NCBI GenBank assembly: GCA_030692565.1
Contig: JAUYAO010000031.1
Location: forward strand, 1-64,000
Length of the DNA: 64,000 bases
Origin: Nitrospira sp.
GTDB taxonomy: Bacteria > Nitrospirota > Nitrospiria > Nitrospirales > Nitrospiraceae
Reading direction: 5' to 3'
This document shows, piece by piece, positions 51,331-58,414 of the stretch. Numbering within the stretch: position 1 is the stretch's first letter; every line of letters begins with the position of its first letter. The notes under the pieces are model-generated. The model saw nothing but the letters and a program-made list of their open reading frames with translations. It had not been told where the DNA came from and did no database searches. The position numbers and the translations under genes are program-made.

Positions 51331-51900
51331 CTAGGCTTTCGATCGGACTCGTTGACGGGCCTTCGTTTTCGGTTCCGGTTGTGGTTCCGGCCCTTCCCAC
51401 GTCACCCGGACCAGCATATCGCGATGAGCCCAGTGGTAAGCCGACTTTCCTTTATACGACCGCACCAGCGCGCGTCCGATGCGCTGCGCCAGCCGGTCGT
51501 TGGTCGTCTGTATTTCTAACTCTTTCTTGCGCCGGACGATCTTCATCACCCGATCGAGGGGATTGACCGATAACGCGCGCGCTTCCACATTGGCGATCAA
51601 CCCCCTGATCTCTGGCTCGTGCTCCCGCAGATCGGACCACTTCAAGGTCACGATCCCTTCGGGATAGTCGTCCCGGGTTTTCTGGCAGGCGGGACAGACG
51701 AGCTTCTTCGTGCGAGGAGACGCCGCCAGTTTGGGGGCTTCGACTGTATCGAAGTGCCACCGCTTGTCTGCATAAATCGCCAAACATTTCCGGCAGATTA
51801 CCGGCCCTTTCGGGGCTTTGAGCATCGCATAGGGATCTTGTTTCGGATGTTCCCTCTTCTTGTAGGATGTGTCGTAGCGTTTGCCGAGCTTTGTACTCAT
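51331..51900 (-). CDS. BCAM0308-like small zinc-ribbon protein
   Basis: A 189-residue basic protein with two Cys pairs, CRKC (about 37) and CPAC (about 70), separated by about 30 residues. RWHFDTVEAPKL is also visible, and a C-terminal half predicted alpha/beta carries NPLDRVMKIVRRKKELEIQTTNDRLAQRIGRAL. The layout fits the uncharacterised BCAM0308 family; the second half resembles archaeal NMD3-type segments, so RNA or ribosome binding is possible. It lies three bases before the beta-CASP gene. Confidence 0.75.
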   Translation of the reverse strand: MSTKLGKRYDTSYKKREHPKQDPYAMLKAPKGPVICRKCLAIYADKRWHFDTVEAPKLAASPRTKKLVCPACQKTRDDYPEGIVTLKWSDLREHEPEIRGLIANVEARALSVNPLDRVMKIVRRKKELEIQTTNDRLAQRIGRALVRSYKGKSAYHWAHRDMLVRVTWEGPEPQPEPKTKARQRVRSKA

Positions 51901-51948: not shown

Positions 51949-52251
51949 CTATCCTTCTCCCTGAGTTCTTCTGATCGCAACCGCAAGCACGTGACCGAAT
52001 CCATCCGTGCATGCACCGGTAGGCGCACCATAAGCATCGCTCCTTGTGCGGCGTCGCTGCGGTTGCGCAGGAATACGTTTCGGCGGGTTGATCGGCTTCC
52101 GTACGGGCTTGGGCGGTTTCGGCGGCGCTCCCGGCTGCAATGGCCGCTCCGGCGGCCTTCTTGGGACGCGACGGGGAACCCGCCGCGTCAATCCGTTTCT
52201 TTTTTTGGATCTGATAGAATCGACGGACACATCTCTTCGCCTCCCCGGCAA
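51949..52251 (-). CDS. Possible basic proline-rich small protein (frame uncertain)
   Basis: The stretch 51901-52294 shows high G+C and codon-like periodicity on the minus strand, but the frame is unclear. One frame gives a 100-residue Pro/Arg-rich product (PLQPGAPPKPPKPVRKPI). Another gives an Ala/Lys-rich product (PKKAAGAAIAAGSAAE). A GGGGAGG site precedes an ATG at 52235 that reads only 14 codons before a stop, just beyond a run of seven A. A frameshifted gene is possible. Confidence 0.25.
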   Translation of the reverse strand: MPGRRRDVSVDSIRSKKRNGLTRRVPRRVPRRPPERPLQPGAPPKPPKPVRKPINPPKRIPAQPQRRRTRSDAYGAPTGACTDGFGHVLAVAIRRTQGEG

Positions 52252-52294
52252 AATAGACTTGCCGACCGCAACGACGCGGAACGCACTGAGACAT

Positions 52295-52564
52295 TCAACT
52301 CACAATCCGCTTCCCTTGTTGCACCACATCGTCAATGGCTGCCTTGGCATCTGCCGCCAGACCGGAGGCGCGCTCCTTGGCGTCTTCCGCCAGATTCTGG
52401 AGTTGCCGGCGCGTGTAGGCGCCGGAATGCGGAGCGGCCACAATTCCTGCGGCCAGTCCGACAAGCACGCCGGTGGCGAACGTCAAGGCCCCCACCATGA
52501 AGACGCCGACGCCATCACACCCGGACATTTTCTGGTCTGTCTGTCGATCGACCGGTTCTGTCAT
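52295..52564 (-). CDS. YtxH-domain membrane protein
   Basis: An 89-residue protein starting at 52564 (MTEPVDRQTDQK) with an AGGAG site upstream. One membrane helix (VFMVGALTFATGVLVGLAAGIVAAP, about 20-45) ends in the YtxH hallmark GxxxAP and is followed by a charged helix (RRQLQNLAEDAKERASGLAADAKAAIDD). Such proteins are general-stress associated and of unknown function. Overlaps the PepSY gene stop/start by four bases. Confidence 0.8.
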   Translation of the reverse strand: MTEPVDRQTDQKMSGCDGVGVFMVGALTFATGVLVGLAAGIVAAPHSGAYTRRQLQNLAEDAKERASGLAADAKAAIDDVVQQGKRIVS

Positions 52565-52938
52565 GGCTTGTGCTCCTGTTTGCGTTCCTGCTTCCGCTCG
52601 CGCTTCACGTCTTTCCCCGGCTTCTCTTCCTCCACGTCGATCACGGCTCCGGTCTCGGCATCGATGTGGATCTCCATCACCTTGTTCTCCGCCGTGACGA
52701 CCTCGACCTCCCACACGAGTTTGTCGTGTTTTTTCTCTAACTCGGCCTCGACGACCTTGCCAGGCACTTTTTCCGAGGCTGTCTTGATCGCTTGATCGAT
52801 TGTCACCTTGGCCGCTGTGGCCATTTCGACTGTCTCTTTCGATTCATCGTTCTTGCCCTTGTCACCGCTCCACGCGGGACCATTCAGCACCAATATGGCG
52901 CCGATTGCCACCGCCATCATTCCCACTAACTGCTTCAT
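52561..52938 (-). CDS. Secreted PepSY-domain protein
   Basis: A 125-residue protein with a signal peptide (MKQLVGMMAVAIGAILVLNGPAWSG) and one PepSY domain (about 44-105: TIDQAIKTASEKVPGKVVEAELE, WEVEVVTAENKVMEIHIDAETGAVIDVEEE). PepSY domains are thought to inhibit proteases or bind periplasmic ligands. The tail is a Lys/Arg/Glu-rich repeat (RKQERKQEHK). Precedes the YtxH gene, with overlapping stop and start codons. Confidence 0.85.
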   Translation of the reverse strand: MKQLVGMMAVAIGAILVLNGPAWSGDKGKNDESKETVEMATAAKVTIDQAIKTASEKVPGKVVEAELEKKHDKLVWEVEVVTAENKVMEIHIDAETGAVIDVEEEKPGKDVKRERKQERKQEHKP

Positions 52939-53095
52939 AGGAACCTCCTGCTATAGATTGTTATGGTACGCATCACTCGCGTGAGTCATGACATTCATTT
53001 TGCAAGACCTGGACCGCTTGAAACCTTCCGATAAACACTCTCTGAAGATTCGTCTGACCCGTTGCGCAACAGATCGAGGGAACACCCGTGGGGAG

Positions 53096-53449
53096 TTATG
53101 CTTCACTCCGCCCTTTCTCGATTAGAACGGGTGAAGCGCGATCGGCGACACCGAGGGTGCTGCGCGCCTCATCCAACAGTTGTTGCCGCAGTGCTGCGAG
53201 TTGTTGCGCTTGGGAGATGATGGCCTTAAGACTGCGCGCCGTTTCTCTGTCCGCGCCGCGTTCCAAGAGATACTCCATGCGCCCAATGACGACAGTGATC
53301 GGTCCGCCCATCTCTTGTGCCACATGCAGCAGGCGAATCATTCGATCGCTGTCCGCTATGGCTGTCGCGAGCGGCTTCTCCCGGCTCGGCGTTCGCCTGG
53401 TCTTGCCTGCATCCCTCTTTGCATGTCCATTGAGCATCCCGGCCTTCAT
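53096..53449 (-). CDS. DHp-like kinase fragment lacking the phosphorylatable histidine
   Basis: A 117-residue soluble protein. Residues 30-105 match the dimerisation/phosphotransfer helices of histidine kinases (LLHVAQEMGGPITVVIGRMEYLLE...SLKAIISQAQQLAALRQQLLDEA), but the H-box reads VAQEM, with Gln45 where the kinase histidine should be. There is no ATPase domain. It overlaps the downstream receiver gene by four bases. It could be a scaffold or dimerisation partner for that receiver rather than an enzyme. Confidence 0.7.
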   Translation of the reverse strand: MKAGMLNGHAKRDAGKTRRTPSREKPLATAIADSDRMIRLLHVAQEMGGPITVVIGRMEYLLERGADRETARSLKAIISQAQQLAALRQQLLDEARSTLGVADRASPVLIEKGRSEA

Positions 53450-53901
53450 CGTTCACCTCCCTCGTGAGAATCTCTTGCCGAATCTTCCGTCTCCGGGTTT
53501 CCCTCACTATCGCGTCGCGCAGGACTCACAAACCTGCCGCCCGCGAGCACTGCATGAATCGCCGCCGCAAGGTCCGTATGGGCCGACTGTTTCCGCACGA
53601 ACCCCATCGCCCCCGCGGCGAACGCTTCCTCGATCGTCCGCGGATTCGCGTGGACGGTGCAGATGATCACCTTGCTCTCCGGCACGTCCCGCCGGAGCAT
53701 CCGCGCCGCATCGAGCCCGCTCACCCCCGGCATCCTCAGATCCAAGACGATCACGTCCGGATGTAGGCGACACGCCTCCGCAAACACCGCACGTCCGTCT
53801 TGCACGGCCCCGACGACCTCGCCGACCTTCTCGGCAAGGTGACGGAGATTCGTCAATATTTGTGGGTGATCGTCCGCCAGCAGAATACGGGGTGTCATCA
53901 C
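53446..53901 (-). CDS. Single-domain response regulator
   Basis: A 151-residue receiver: acidic pocket ADDHP (residues 9-13), phosphoacceptor Asp54 in VIVLDLRMPG, conserved Thr in IICTVHA and Lys in FVRKQSA. The receiver resembles NarL-type ones, but no helix-turn-helix follows; the last 25 residues are polar (SEGNPETEDSARDS). It is probably a phosphate sink or protein-binding regulator working with the His-less DHp protein overlapping it. Confidence 0.85.
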   Translation of the reverse strand: MMTPRILLADDHPQILTNLRHLAEKVGEVVGAVQDGRAVFAEACRLHPDVIVLDLRMPGVSGLDAARMLRRDVPESKVIICTVHANPRTIEEAFAAGAMGFVRKQSAHTDLAAAIHAVLAGGRFVSPARRDSEGNPETEDSARDSHEGGER

Positions 53902-54057
53902 GCGTCCTCACATCCCGGGCCTCCGGAGTATGCATCCTGTCGCGGACAGGCTCCGCCCTATCAGTCACACGGCACAGATAGGAACCAGGATCGATCGCAT
54001 CGTGTATCTCAACCCGCTTGTGCGTGGAACAGCTATACCGGATCGCGGCTGGGAACA

Positions 54058-54070
54058 GAACTAGGGAACG
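54058..54070 (-). promoter_or_regulatory. Shared motif CGTTCCCTAGTTC, copy 1
   Basis: Read on the minus strand, the 13 bases CGTTCCCTAGTTC lie 157 bases before the single-domain regulator start. The same 13 bases occur upstream of the plus-strand cluster at 57334. Its location before two signalling or small-protein operons suggests a shared promoter element or regulator site. Confidence 0.4.
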
Positions 54071-54116
54071 GCCTAGGCGCAGGGGGGATTCGCTACTAGG
54101 GGGCAGTTGGAACGGA

Positions 54117-54767
54117 TCAGGACTCCGCGCTCGCCAGCCCTTCGGCAATCGCAAACTTGATAAGCGCGGGGGTGGAATGCAGATCGAGCTGCTCCATGAT
54201 GCGGGCCTTATGGAACTCCACCGTCTTGACCGAGACATTCAGGATGACCGCCGCCTCTTTCGGGCTCTTGCCTTCGGCGATCAATTGCAGCACTTCGCGC
54301 TGCCGCGGGGTCAAATCCATCACCGAGCTTTTGAGCTCCGCCTCCTTCGGTCGCAGGGCCGTTTCGAGGACGGTCTTGGTCATGGCCGGCGTGAGATAGG
54401 TCTGCCCTTTGAGCGCCGCCTCGATGGCCTGCGGCAACTCAGTGGCGGCGGACTGTTTCAACAGATACCCGCTCGCCCCGGCTTTCATGGCTTCGGTGGC
54501 GTAGGTGGGGCTCGCATGCATCGTGAGAAACAGCAGCTTCGCCTCCGGCAGAGCCTTCTTGATCTGGCGCGCCGCATCCAAGCCGTTCAAGAGCGGCATC
54601 GAAATATCCAGGAGAATCAGCTCCGGCTTCAGCCGATCCGCCGCCTCGACCAATGCCCGGCCGTCCGCGACCGTCCCGACCACCTCACAGCGATCCTCGA
54701 CCAGTTTGCGCAGACCGGCCACCAGAATGGAATGATCGTCGGCGATCAGCACGCGGGGCTTCTTCAC
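54117..54767 (-). CDS. NarL/LuxR-family response regulator
   Basis: A 216-residue regulator: receiver (1-120) with ADDH, phosphoacceptor Asp54 in LLDISMP, and a C-terminal LuxR-type helix-turn-helix (LTPRQREVLQLIAEGKSPKEAAVILNVSVKTVEFHK, about 150-187). The start is a GTG at 54767 with a strong GGAGG site. It is the likely partner of the kinase encoded immediately upstream (25 bases between the genes). Target genes are unknown. Confidence 0.93.
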   Translation of the reverse strand: MKKPRVLIADDHSILVAGLRKLVEDRCEVVGTVADGRALVEAADRLKPELILLDISMPLLNGLDAARQIKKALPEAKLLFLTMHASPTYATEAMKAGASGYLLKQSAATELPQAIEAALKGQTYLTPAMTKTVLETALRPKEAELKSSVMDLTPRQREVLQLIAEGKSPKEAAVILNVSVKTVEFHKARIMEQLDLHSTPALIKFAIAEGLASAES

Positions 54768-54792
54768 ACGAACTCCCTCCTCACTTCACGCA

Positions 54793-57027
54793 TCACTCAT
54801 CACGCTTCACATCTTCCAGCGGCACCCAGACATGCACTTCCGTCCCCTCGCCGGGTTTCGTCCGGATGTGGAACGTTCCCTTCACAAGCCCCACCCGCTC
54901 CGCCATGCTGGTCAAGCCGAGGCCGTTCCGACGCGCTCCGGCCTGCCTCGATTCAAACCCCTGTCCGTCATCGTGGACACAGAGCCCCAGACCGCGGCTC
55001 GTACGCAGGAGCCGGACCAGCACCGTGGTGGCCTCAGCATGCTTGTGCACATTCTGCAAACTTTCCTGCAACACACGATAGAGACAGGTCGCCTGATCGC
55101 GCGGCAGAGCCTGAGGCACATTGCGAACGATGACTTCTGTCGATAATCCCGTTCGCGCGGCGAACTCATCACTCAGTTCATGAACCGCAGCTTCCAAGCC
55201 CGCATGTTCCAAAATCGACGGATGAAGACGGTGCGCCATCTGTTGCAGATCAGTCGCCAGATGCTCTGCCGAGTCTCCCAGCAGCCGCAGGCTGGATGCT
55301 CCTGAGGGCTGCGAGTCAGACGCCTCCAAACAGACCCTGCGCAAGTCGATCGTGAGCGCGGCCAGCCGCTGAGCGAAATCATCGTGCAGTTCCCGCGCGA
55401 TCCGCCGCCGCTCCTCTTCCTGAGCCTGCAGCAACTGGGCGCCGAGAGACTCCAGTTGCGCTTCGCGTTCCCGGAGGGCCGCTTCGGTAGCTTTGAGTGG
55501 CGTGATATCGGCCAGCAGGATGAAGAGACCGGCCACGTTCCCTTGTTCGTCTTGGTCCGGCACATACTGTGCGGCAAACCAATGGACGGTCGCCCCTGGC
55601 CCCGGCAGACGGTACTCGAACGAAACGGCGTGACCCTGGAAGGCCGCGTCAAGATTCGTCCGCACCTCAGCATATCCCTCGGAGCCGAGCAGCTCGTACA
55701 TGCTCATTCCCACAATCTCTTCGCCGGGCAGACCGAAGAGGTCCTCATACCGTCGGTTGACGAACCGATAACGCCGATCCCTGTCGATGTAACTAAAGAG
55801 AGCCGGTACATTGTCGGCCAAGGCGCGGAACTCGTGCGCGCTCCGGCGCAACGTGTCTTCCGCTTCCTTGCGCCAGGTGATATCCGTCTCCGCGCCGACC
55901 ATGCGGACCGCGCGTCCCTGTTCGTCCCAGAGAGCGGCTCCCCGGTCCAGCACCCACATCACGGTCCCATCTTTCCGCCGGATGCGGTATTCCTCCCAGA
56001 ACTCTGGGCGCTGCTGCTGCCAATAGGCTTGGAGCCGCGCCAAGACGCGTGGTCGATCCTCCGGGTGGATCCTTTCGGACCACTCCTGGCTCGATTCCAG
56101 GTTGTCCGTCTCCTGAAACCCATGCATTTCTTTCCAGCGGGGAGAAAAATAGACCGTCTCGCCTACGAGATCCCAATCCCACAGGCCATCGTGCGTCGCC
56201 TTGGCAACCCACTCGAAGCGCTCGTTGGCCTTTGCCAGTTCGGCGGTGCGTTCCGCTACCTGCTGTTTCAGCATAATATTTATTTTGCCGAGCGCCTCTT
56301 CAACTTGCGTACGCTCGGTAATGTCTAGAATGACGCCGATCATGCGCACGGGCTTGCCGGCCTGGTTACGATACACATGTCCTCGGTCGCTCAGCCAGTG
56401 GATGGTGCCATCCGGCCAAATCGTTCGATAGTCCTCGCGAAAGGCCATATCGGTTTCGAGGGACTGTGTAATCGCCCGGCCAATTCGATCCCGGTCCTCG
56501 GGATGGACCGCCTGCATGAATTCCTCAACCGTGACATGCCGAGTTCCGGGAGGGAGGCCGAACAGAGGGCCGAGTGTCGGCGAATAGATCGCGGTGTTTG
56601 CCGCGACGTTCCAGTCCCAGGCGCCCAGGCGCGCAATTTCCATGGCCAAACGGAGTCGCTCTTCGCTCTCGCACCGCGCCTCATGAGTATCCGCAGCCTG
56701 CTGCGCCGATTGTTTCTGTTTTACCAGGAGACCAGCCACGACCAGCAGTAGCGCCGAGGCCATCGTGCGATTCGTCACTGCTTCAAAGGAAATCTCGCCA
56801 GGAGAGAGCAGGATTCCCAGCCACGTGAGCCCCAACGCACTCCCGACCGCCAGGATGATGCTCTGCTGCCCGGGAACAAGCCAGGTAAGGAGAACCGGCA
56901 GCACGTACAACGTCGGCACGGCGTAACCGAGGGGAGTCAGCAGGTCTAGAATGAAGACTGCTGCTGCTGCTGCTGCTGCTGCAATAATCCAGCCGCCTGG
57001 CATGTTACGAAACGTCGATACGGTCAC
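54793..57027 (-). CDS. PAS-domain sensor histidine kinase (HisKA_3, NarQ type)
   Basis: A 744-residue membrane kinase. The N-terminus has four hydrophobic segments (about 12-105), the first containing eight consecutive alanines. Three PAS/PAC domains follow (about 120-260, 265-385, 390-515). A HisKA_3 phosphoacceptor helix has RRIARELHDDFAQRLAAL (about 540) and the HATPase domain ends NGLGLTSMAERVGLVKG. The start is a GTG at 57027 with a GGGGAG site. It forms a two-gene system with the NarL-type regulator downstream. The signal is unknown. Confidence 0.93.
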   Translation of the reverse strand: MTVSTFRNMPGGWIIAAAAAAAAVFILDLLTPLGYAVPTLYVLPVLLTWLVPGQQSIILAVGSALGLTWLGILLSPGEISFEAVTNRTMASALLLVVAGLLVKQKQSAQQAADTHEARCESEERLRLAMEIARLGAWDWNVAANTAIYSPTLGPLFGLPPGTRHVTVEEFMQAVHPEDRDRIGRAITQSLETDMAFREDYRTIWPDGTIHWLSDRGHVYRNQAGKPVRMIGVILDITERTQVEEALGKINIMLKQQVAERTAELAKANERFEWVAKATHDGLWDWDLVGETVYFSPRWKEMHGFQETDNLESSQEWSERIHPEDRPRVLARLQAYWQQQRPEFWEEYRIRRKDGTVMWVLDRGAALWDEQGRAVRMVGAETDITWRKEAEDTLRRSAHEFRALADNVPALFSYIDRDRRYRFVNRRYEDLFGLPGEEIVGMSMYELLGSEGYAEVRTNLDAAFQGHAVSFEYRLPGPGATVHWFAAQYVPDQDEQGNVAGLFILLADITPLKATEAALREREAQLESLGAQLLQAQEEERRRIARELHDDFAQRLAALTIDLRRVCLEASDSQPSGASSLRLLGDSAEHLATDLQQMAHRLHPSILEHAGLEAAVHELSDEFAARTGLSTEVIVRNVPQALPRDQATCLYRVLQESLQNVHKHAEATTVLVRLLRTSRGLGLCVHDDGQGFESRQAGARRNGLGLTSMAERVGLVKGTFHIRTKPGEGTEVHVWVPLEDVKRDE
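56959..56982. repeat. Trinucleotide repeat encoding eight alanines in the kinase
   Basis: Eight perfect TGC units on the plus strand (GCA on the coding strand) encode Ala16-Ala23 in the first hydrophobic segment of the sensor kinase. A pure codon repeat, rather than mixed Ala codons, points to slippage. Unit changes would keep the frame and alter helix length. Confidence 0.85.
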
Positions 57028-57333
57028 ACGCCTGTCTCCCCGGAGTCACAAGCGCGACCAGAATGGATTTCGATTGGCTCGCCAAATGCTCGCGAAAATG
57101 TGAAGCCTCTTGTGCGTGATGTCGGGATGTCTTGTTTCAAGAGACCCTTTCCACTGGAATACATCCACAGGCTGAGTCCTGGCAGCGGCGCAGAATAGCC
57201 GCACACCTATTGGTTTGTCTCATCGCCAAGGAAAGCAGTGTACACCGACAGAGGCGCGCGATGCACGAGCCCGCAGTGCATGATGATGGATGGCGGATTG
57301 CGCCTCAGATAACTTTTCTTCCTCATTCTGGTA

Positions 57334-57346
57334 CGTTCCCTAGTTC
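57334..57346 (+). promoter_or_regulatory. Shared motif CGTTCCCTAGTTC, copy 2
   Basis: Identical over 13 bases to the copy at 54058-54070 and in the same orientation relative to the gene it precedes (71 bases before the winged-helix gene start). The divergent interval 57028-57416 otherwise holds no supported gene; it must contain promoters for the kinase (minus) and this cluster (plus). Confidence 0.4.
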
Positions 57347-57416
57347 CGGCGCGCGCGTCTATCGGTGCATGATGCGGACGAACATGAGCGCCTCACCCCC
57401 ACCGGAGGTCCGTCGC

Positions 57417-57653
57417 ATGAACCGCCTGAACGACACCATGGAAGATCCCATCATCGACGTCTTGCAAAGAACCGGTCCCTGCTGCCTGGACGATCTCGTC
57501 GTGCAGCTTCCGAATCATGACTGGAGTGAGATTTTCGCCACCGTAGACCGGATGTCGCGGGACGGCCGGTTGGTGCTGCGCCGCTTTCCCAGATCGGGGT
57601 ACCAACTGTCCCTTCCATTAGTGCATGCCGCGGGCAAGGAGGTGTACGCATGA
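57417..57653 (+). CDS. Small winged-helix-like protein
   Basis: A 78-residue protein starting MNRLNDTMEDPIIDVLQRTGP, with an ATG at 57417 and a GGAGG site eight bases upstream. The pattern of helix, LDDLVVQLPNHDWSEIFATVDRMSRDGRL, then LRRFPRSGYQLSL suggests a winged helix-turn-helix with a beta wing. In-frame ATGs upstream (57366, 57384) could extend it slightly. First gene of a plus-strand cluster of small proteins; its stop overlaps the next ATG. Confidence 0.7.
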   Translation: MNRLNDTMEDPIIDVLQRTGPCCLDDLVVQLPNHDWSEIFATVDRMSRDGRLVLRRFPRSGYQLSLPLVHAAGKEVYA

Positions 57654-57904
57654 AACCCATACCAGTATCAGTGCGGTTCTGTGTCGGATGCGGGTACTTC
57701 TGCGATGCCATTCAACCGGAAGGCGAGCAGGCCCCATGGATCGACGCCCATGCGTACCTCATGAAATACGGATTGCACTGGGACGATCTTGACCGAGTCG
57801 ACGATACCTGCCCGCCTTGCGCGCGCGTGTTGGCATGCGCCAGGCGCGGGGCGGTGTCTGAGACGCAGGGGGAGAGAACCTGCGCCCTGATCGGACAGGA
57901 ATAG
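57650..57904 (+). CDS. Small zinc-ribbon protein, paralogue 1
   Basis: An 84-residue protein with CVGC (about 11) and CPPC (about 54) pairs that probably bind one zinc. Between them runs QAPWIDAHAYLMKYGLHWDD. It has a GGAGG site, and its ATG overlaps the winged-helix gene stop. The central 100 bases are 97% identical to a second gene at 58184. No function is known. Confidence 0.7.
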   Translation: MKPIPVSVRFCVGCGYFCDAIQPEGEQAPWIDAHAYLMKYGLHWDDLDRVDDTCPPCARVLACARRGAVSETQGERTCALIGQE

Positions 57905-58183: not shown

Positions 58184-58414
58184 ATGAGACGTCCAGCCGT
58201 TCGATTGTGCGATGGGTGCGGACAGATGTTCGACGATGTGCAACCCGAAGGCGGGCAGGCCCCATGGATCGACGCCCATGCGTACCTCATGAAATACGGA
58301 TTGCACTGGGACGATCTTGATCGAGTCGACGATGCCTGCCCGCCCTGCGCGCGCCTGTTCCAGGCGTCCGCGCACCATCCGCCGGCAGACGGCAAGGAGA
58401 CGCTGACGTCATGA
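58184..58414 (+). CDS. Small zinc-ribbon protein, paralogue 2
   Basis: A 76-residue protein with CDGC (about 9) and CPPC (about 52). Bases 58255-58354 match 57727-57826 of paralogue 1 at 97 of 100 positions, while both ends differ. The pattern suggests recent duplication or gene conversion of the core. The 279 bases between the paralogues hold no supported gene apart from a ten-codon ORF at 57972 after an AAGGAAGG sequence. Its stop overlaps the next start codon. Confidence 0.7.
   Translation: MRRPAVRLCDGCGQMFDDVQPEGGQAPWIDAHAYLMKYGLHWDDLDRVDDACPPCARLFQASAHHPPADGKETLTS

Follow-up and report, generated by a model that had tools for sequence, protein, structure and literature searches.

A DHp-only protein with glutamine at the phosphohistidine position, encoded with a lone receiver in Nitrospira: a candidate non-catalytic receiver-binder

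The window (the whole 64,000-nucleotide stretch of Nitrospira DNA analysed) carries on its minus strand a gene for a small protein composed only of a histidine kinase DHp hairpin, with Gln in place of the phospho-acceptor His, which overlaps the gene for a receiver without output domain. We call this protein QDHp, a name that we apply to a small Nitrospira clade of DHp domains with Gln at this position. The parts are ordinary and the reduction is unusual: a disarmed kinase hairpin kept together with a lone receiver. Its mechanism, given below, is a reasoned prediction. We tentatively favour, at somewhat short of an even chance, the reading that QDHp is a non-catalytic receiver-binder of the DivL/DivK kind, reduced to the DHp alone and serving as a scaffold or sequestering reader. 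No literature on the receiver-QDHp pair or the QDHp clade was found among the matches listed in the open-licence literature.

The QDHp gene (53096-53449, minus strand) encodes 117 amino acids, of which residues 42-98 match Pfam HisKA (PF00512) at 30.6 bits (curated cut-off 26.9). The H-box reads 'AQEMGGPI', with Gln45 (codon 53315-53317, minus strand) where the phospho-acceptor His would stand. Pfam found no HATPase_c and no globin in the 117-aa protein, nor PAS and CA domains flanking the DHp, and the next gene encodes a PepSY protein. A preliminary description of the DNA, made from the sequence, had recognised a DHp-like helix pair with Gln at the phosphohistidine position and no ATPase, and had argued that it could not act in an ordinary two-component system; both points hold. 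The AlphaFold2 model is a hairpin of two helices (residues 24-65 and 68-104), with pLDDT block means of 80-97 over residues 31-100 and low values at both termini. Its best fold matches in the PDB, the ERS1 DHp (E 0.058) and a RetS/GacS DHp structure (E 0.062), are weak: none reaches E 0.001, and unrelated hairpins rank close behind these two. In sequence searches neither the QDHp profile (at E 0.1) nor one globin-bearing member of the clade (at E 0.01) retrieved a solved relative.

The receiver gene (53446-53898, minus strand) encodes 150 amino acids. Residues 5-114 match Response_reg at 95.3 bits, and no second Pfam family, and hence no output domain, was found at E 1. The active site (D9/D10/D53/T81/K103) includes the Asp pocket, phospho-Asp, Thr/Ser and Lys of a single-domain response regulator. 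Phospho-Asp and Lys are present in 19 of 19 aligned receivers (18 lone and one fused), as is Thr/Ser (Ser in four). The receiver and QDHp genes overlap by 4 nt (ATGA), and the strong Shine-Dalgarno sequence of QDHp, GGAGGTGA (53453-53460, minus strand), lies within the last codons of the receiver; it is identical in loci L065 and L066 and changed in L067. The overlap and the missing output domain had been described correctly. The feature had been drawn to 53901, which corresponds to a GTG; the receiver ATG lies one codon downstream, and the gene begins at 53898. The arrangement of the two proteins varies, from overlapping genes in the window to adjacent genes in genome G064 and a single 467-aa frame, with a globin between, in G156. 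The model of this last fusion has a pTM of 0.36 with the globin part at low confidence, so no domain contacts were taken from it.

On the minus strand between 52295 and 57027 the genes follow in the order: a PAS-rich HisKA_3 histidine kinase (54793-57027; HisKA_3 38.5 bits, HATPase_c 44.7 bits), a NarL/LuxR-type response regulator (54117-54767; Response_reg 91.4 bits, GerE 61.5 bits), the lone receiver, QDHp, a PepSY-domain protein (52561-52938) and a YtxH-like protein (52295-52564), the last two being identified by Pfam and recurring as downstream neighbours at the loci of relatives. The receiver starts 218 bases downstream of the NarL regulator's stop, which agrees with the distance of about 200 bases to a full kinase and NarL regulator noted earlier. 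A promoter scan of 52000-57400 found none (1.4 expected). QDHp is not a truncated copy of the neighbouring kinase, whose DHp is of the HisKA_3 family, that of QDHp being HisKA.

The NarL regulator is a regular companion of this receiver. It lies upstream on the same strand at 15 of the 18 receiver loci that extend far enough upstream (the window, L045-L051, L053, L054, L057, L058, L060, L062-L064, L105 and L106), within 760 bases at 13, at 1.0 kb at one and at 2.3 kb at another; the fetched upstream stretches of L046, L047 and L053 contain none. These loci were chosen by similarity and not at random, and the count omits L052 and L059, which start near a contig end, as well as decayed receivers. 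QDHp is a less regular one. Behind receivers of the window type it follows at two of ten loci (the window and G064) and at the other eight no DHp gene follows (the receiver frame of L053 is split). Behind receivers of a sister type, a globin-bearing QDHp follows at seven of ten loci, one fused and one frameshifted, although these ten were partly picked because they hold it. The genome of the window itself has a second kinase-NarL-lone receiver operon of the sister type without QDHp (G000:C11, L105:3813-7478). On gene order QDHp is thus an optional add-on to the operon, since it follows the receiver in only part of the loci. A search of this genome for AMO gave no match, but since the control genomes gave none either, this carries no information on ammonia oxidation.

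Several other genes of the region attracted our attention. Two small proteins on the plus strand (57132-57653 and 57650-57904) belong to no Pfam family; relatives of the former are neighbours of several such operons (L058, L060, L061, L105 and L109), and in G064 (L109:1016-1486) counterparts of both are joined in one frame. Plus-strand stretches 57650-57904 and 58184-58414 are near-identical (QAPWIDAHAYLMKYGLHWDDLDRVDD), which suggests a tandem duplication. On the minus strand, 51331-51900 encodes a 189-aa protein whose score for NMD3 (27.9 bits) exceeds the Pfam cut-off (24.9); NMD3 is an archaeal and eukaryotic family.

A QDHp profile built from 11 cores gave 12 matches at E 7.5e-33 or better among 175 genomes of the family, followed by a gap down to 2.6e-19, where His-bearing kinases begin. 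A thirteenth locus, a fragment in G140, came from a single-sequence search. The 13 loci come from 12 genomes, ten of genus g17 and two of genus g1. Five are short forms: the window, G135 (Nitrospira sp. CG24A, 69% identity), G142 (RCB, 'Rifle cladeB', 59%), G064 (58%) and the G140 (RSF6) fragment. We take CG24A, RCB and RSF6 to be comammox clade B. Eight are globin forms, six of them intact (G142, G144, G150, G151, G153 and G156, the last fused to its receiver), one frameshifted (G155) and one shortened (G148). All six intact forms, which belong to the sister genus, share the order kinase, NarL regulator, receiver, globin-QDHp, and in the three globin forms run through Pfam a Protoglobin domain (38.0-52.2 bits) precedes HisKA. 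Seven relatives were compared with the HisKA cut-off: L057 (30.2 bits) and L064 (29.9) lie above it, and L058, L061, L051, L055 and L056 below (18.5-26.1). In wider searches, among 295 sampled genomes of the phylum the three that match at E 1e-20 are all within the family, and a peptide scan of genome contigs, which requires near-exact stretches and may omit records near the window, found at least nine loci, all in records named Nitrospira or Nitrospirae.

Gln stands at the H-box in all 13 loci, as the preliminary description had proposed to check; residues were counted with the regex AQ(E/K)MG, the loci themselves having been picked by protein similarity and not for Gln. The codon is CAA in nine loci and CAG in four, with both among the short forms; Gln has therefore outlasted changes of its codon. 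A search by phospho-site motif, which permits other residues, found 25 distinct His-bearing segments (counted by motif and not by presence of an ATPase), eight Gln segments and no other residue; its second motif missed the Gln members L051, L056, L064 and L067.

By homology, the QDHp lineage is descended from a globin-coupled HisKA kinase and has lost the ATPase, the phospho-His and the heme-ligand His of the globin, since homologues with intact His and ATPase exist. One of these, L025, is a full kinase with Protoglobin, HisKA and HATPase_c according to Pfam. In a search of 12 reference sequences, a single unbroken alignment (34.5% over 258 aa; 157 bits) joined the G156 globin form to a globin-HisKA-HATPase kinase of G174, whose globin matches that of AfGcHK (PDB 5ohe, E 2.7e-18). 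The His of 'EVHDRIGL' in the G174 kinase aligns with residue 99 of AfGcHK, which is a heme ligand according to the available text of PMC8697598; in six of six globin-QDHps this position is Arg. The ancestral kinase was probably oxygen-sensing. When 12 Gln cores and 17 His domains are placed in one tree, the Gln cores form one clade (support 0.974) with the short forms nested inside (1.000). The tree is based on 76 columns taken in register with no alignment step, and its nearest outgroup has two very long branches. With the short forms inside a single Gln clade, one loss of His followed by loss of the globin would be the simplest account.

Is the short form then anything more than debris? It could be a relic in decay, a piece of an acquired operon that persists for the time being without any function; we consider this unlikely, though it is a serious contender. 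The short form is patchy, being present in 5 of the 175 family genomes and in one of these as a fragment. The receivers of CG24A and RSF6 are pseudogenes, fragments with stops or frame shifts, and no receiver was found at the RCB locus, where the ribosome site of QDHp alone remains; the QDHp of RSF6 breaks off near residue 56. The downstream PepSY protein of the window is closest to those of the sister-genus genomes G151, G135 and G142 (85, 83 and 80%), compared with 61-77% for the best match of seven congeners and 60 and 55% for G156 and G153 of the sister genus. This pattern fits acquisition by transfer, without proving it. In a comparison with RCB alone, the MBL and 189-aa proteins are 91% and 86% identical.

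Against a relic, the core (residues 35-96) has a pN/pS of 0.15-0.39 in the six pairs of four open short forms, with pS of 0.48-0.71, while the tails have 0.68-0.95 and the whole gene 0.33-0.63. Both Gln and the residue at H+4 have been held through synonymous codon changes, and the strong Shine-Dalgarno sequence is retained in the window, CG24A and RCB. These values come from a simple counting method and few pairs. The globin-form DHp core gives 0.22-0.46 (15 pairs of six forms), and the broken G155 and the shortened G148 give 0.25-0.64 against intact copies (12 pairs), overlapping the intact range. The two damaged copies speak for decay even though their cores look constrained, and low pN/pS is no proof of present function, since a recent loss would be invisible. 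That the window locus is beyond chance is, on these comparisons, clear enough: open homologues at 69, 59 and 58% identity have Gln at the same place and the core changes more slowly than the tails. Of the truncated kinase relic envisaged by the preliminary description, descent from a kinase stands, but the Gln clade with its constrained core leaves a mere relic unproven.

The idea that receiver and QDHp form a fixed pair is, however, not supported, given the eight loci of the receiver type with no DHp gene and the three lineages with decayed or missing receivers. QDHp is still open in two of these (CG24A and RCB), so it may not depend on the lone receiver there, and the CG24A, RSF6 and RCB lineages may be in the course of losing the pair. 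Similar FtsH-like N-terminal stretches occur on the other strand at the RSF6 breakpoint (L011 and L110) and, in G148, at a distance of about 1.2 kb from the shortened copy (L013).

A second possibility is that QDHp is a dedicated phosphatase, dead as a kinase, which strips phosphate from the lone receiver and so makes it a drain for the kinase. In CrdS, Asn or Thr at H+4 is exclusively required for HisKA phosphatase activity and the His only enhances it: N375A abolished the activity and H371A merely slowed it, and Gly is not among the substitutions in the parts of that paper available to us (PMC3510030). EnvZ, to judge from a title cited in PMC5727384, has phosphatase activity without its catalytic domain. 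The H+4 residue is Thr in eight of eight globin-class members, which makes this class kinase-minus and possibly a phosphatase. In the window it is Gly49 (codon 53303-53305, minus strand), and Gly occurs in all five short forms (one a fragment). Lacking phospho-His, HATPase_c and Asn or Thr at H+4, the short forms, including that of the window, are predicted to have neither kinase nor phosphatase activity. A phosphatase thus suits the globin class and is distinctly unlikely for the window.

We think it very unlikely that QDHp is a poison or modulating subunit which, by heterodimerising with one of the cell's full HisKA kinases, changes the output of that kinase. A long frame in this genome (C16:25641) contains a related DHp of the same type (36% over 55 aa), the RetS/GacS DHp complex is among the best fold matches, and an evolved ChrS pseudokinase acts, in the text available of PMC9491836, via HrrS, its heterodimer partner. 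The branches between the QDHp clade and the His-bearing kinases are nevertheless long (for the short forms, 0.68 plus 1.21), and mixed dimers with the neighbouring kinase are unlikely because it belongs to a different DHp family, HisKA_3.

Most improbable of all is a shifted phospho-site, with His42 (codon 53324-53326, minus strand), one helical turn before Gln45, taking phosphate from kinase or receiver so that the short form would be a small phosphotransfer protein: His42 is present in four of five short forms (window, G135, G142 and the G140 fragment), but G064 has Gln there and the globin class has Gly or Glu, then Leu/Ser. An ordinary phosphotransfer protein of the HPt, ChpT or Spo0B kind, with a phosphorylatable His, is improbable since the canonical site is Gln, though His42, three residues earlier, would offer the shifted site as a minor rival.

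The best reading thus remains a non-catalytic dimeric scaffold or binder, a dimeric scaffold having been among the earlier suggestions, next to a phosphate sink and a more conjectural insulator for the neighbouring kinase. QDHp would be the hairpin remaining from a globin-coupled HisKA kinase that has lost its sensor, ATPase, phospho-His and phosphatase residue. The hairpin would dimerise and retain its response-regulator docking face. The upstream HisKA_3 kinase, or another kinase, probably phosphorylates the coupled lone receiver; QDHp would bind this receiver, perhaps by preference in its phosphorylated form, and hold it with its phosphate unchanged. In this way it would set the level of receiver that the NarL regulator has to compete with for the kinase. 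We infer that QDHp forms dimers, that it binds the receiver, that it prefers the phosphorylated state and that the NarL branch is affected. The window QDHp would be left with docking and the ability to dimerise, both of which DivL uses. Several observations weigh against this reading: the patchy distribution, the decay or absence of the receiver in CG24A, RSF6 and RCB, the eight receiver loci and the second operon of this genome that lack QDHp, the damaged copies whose cores look constrained as well, Lys at H+1 in G064, and the nearby His42.

DivK of Caulobacter is a single-domain receiver. Its partner DivL is a pseudokinase with Tyr for His, described in the available text of PMC4211667 as dimerising and binding DivK~P without kinase or phosphatase activity. 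QDHp too is a DHp of kinase origin that lacks His at the phospho-site and has a receiver as its partner gene product, and it is predicted to be a reader and not a modifier. Unlike QDHp, which is a DHp only and has Gln, DivL retains PAS and CA domains. The globin class aligns whole with the G174 kinase and so resembles globin-coupled histidine kinases of the AfGcHK kind, but has no ATPase, Gln for the phospho-His and Arg for the heme-ligand His, and the window form has no globin. The lone receiver has the intact active site and missing output domain of single-domain response regulators, but overlaps a DHp-only gene. A non-heme globin fold as N-terminal domain of a signalling protein is also found in RsbR of the stressosome, as far as the available text of PMC6614362 describes it; there it is attached to STAS and here to a dead DHp. 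Laboratory-evolved ChrS of Corynebacterium glutamicum is a DHp protein that still acts with no working catalytic domain; it differs from QDHp in being a sensor kinase with a recent frameshift that acts with a paralogous kinase (both according to the portions available of PMC9491836).

The pseudo-histidine kinases DivL and ChrS are both larger and have a degenerate core, and QDHp takes this to a minimum of a single hairpin. It extends the component list of a kinase-NarL-receiver operon that recurs in Nitrospira, and is a clean test case for receiver reading by an isolated DHp. The series has living intermediates on both sides of the globin loss, with H+4 predicting when phosphatase activity went. 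It might even record a reversal of roles, in which a globin-coupled oxygen-sensing kinase of Nitrospira lost stepwise its ATPase, phospho-His and heme ligand to become a phosphatase-type partner and then a bare receiver reader with only the docking hairpin. We think this complete scheme rather doubtful; if it is true, the series from kinase to globin-QDHp to QDHp would show a signalling enzyme becoming a receptor for its own target.
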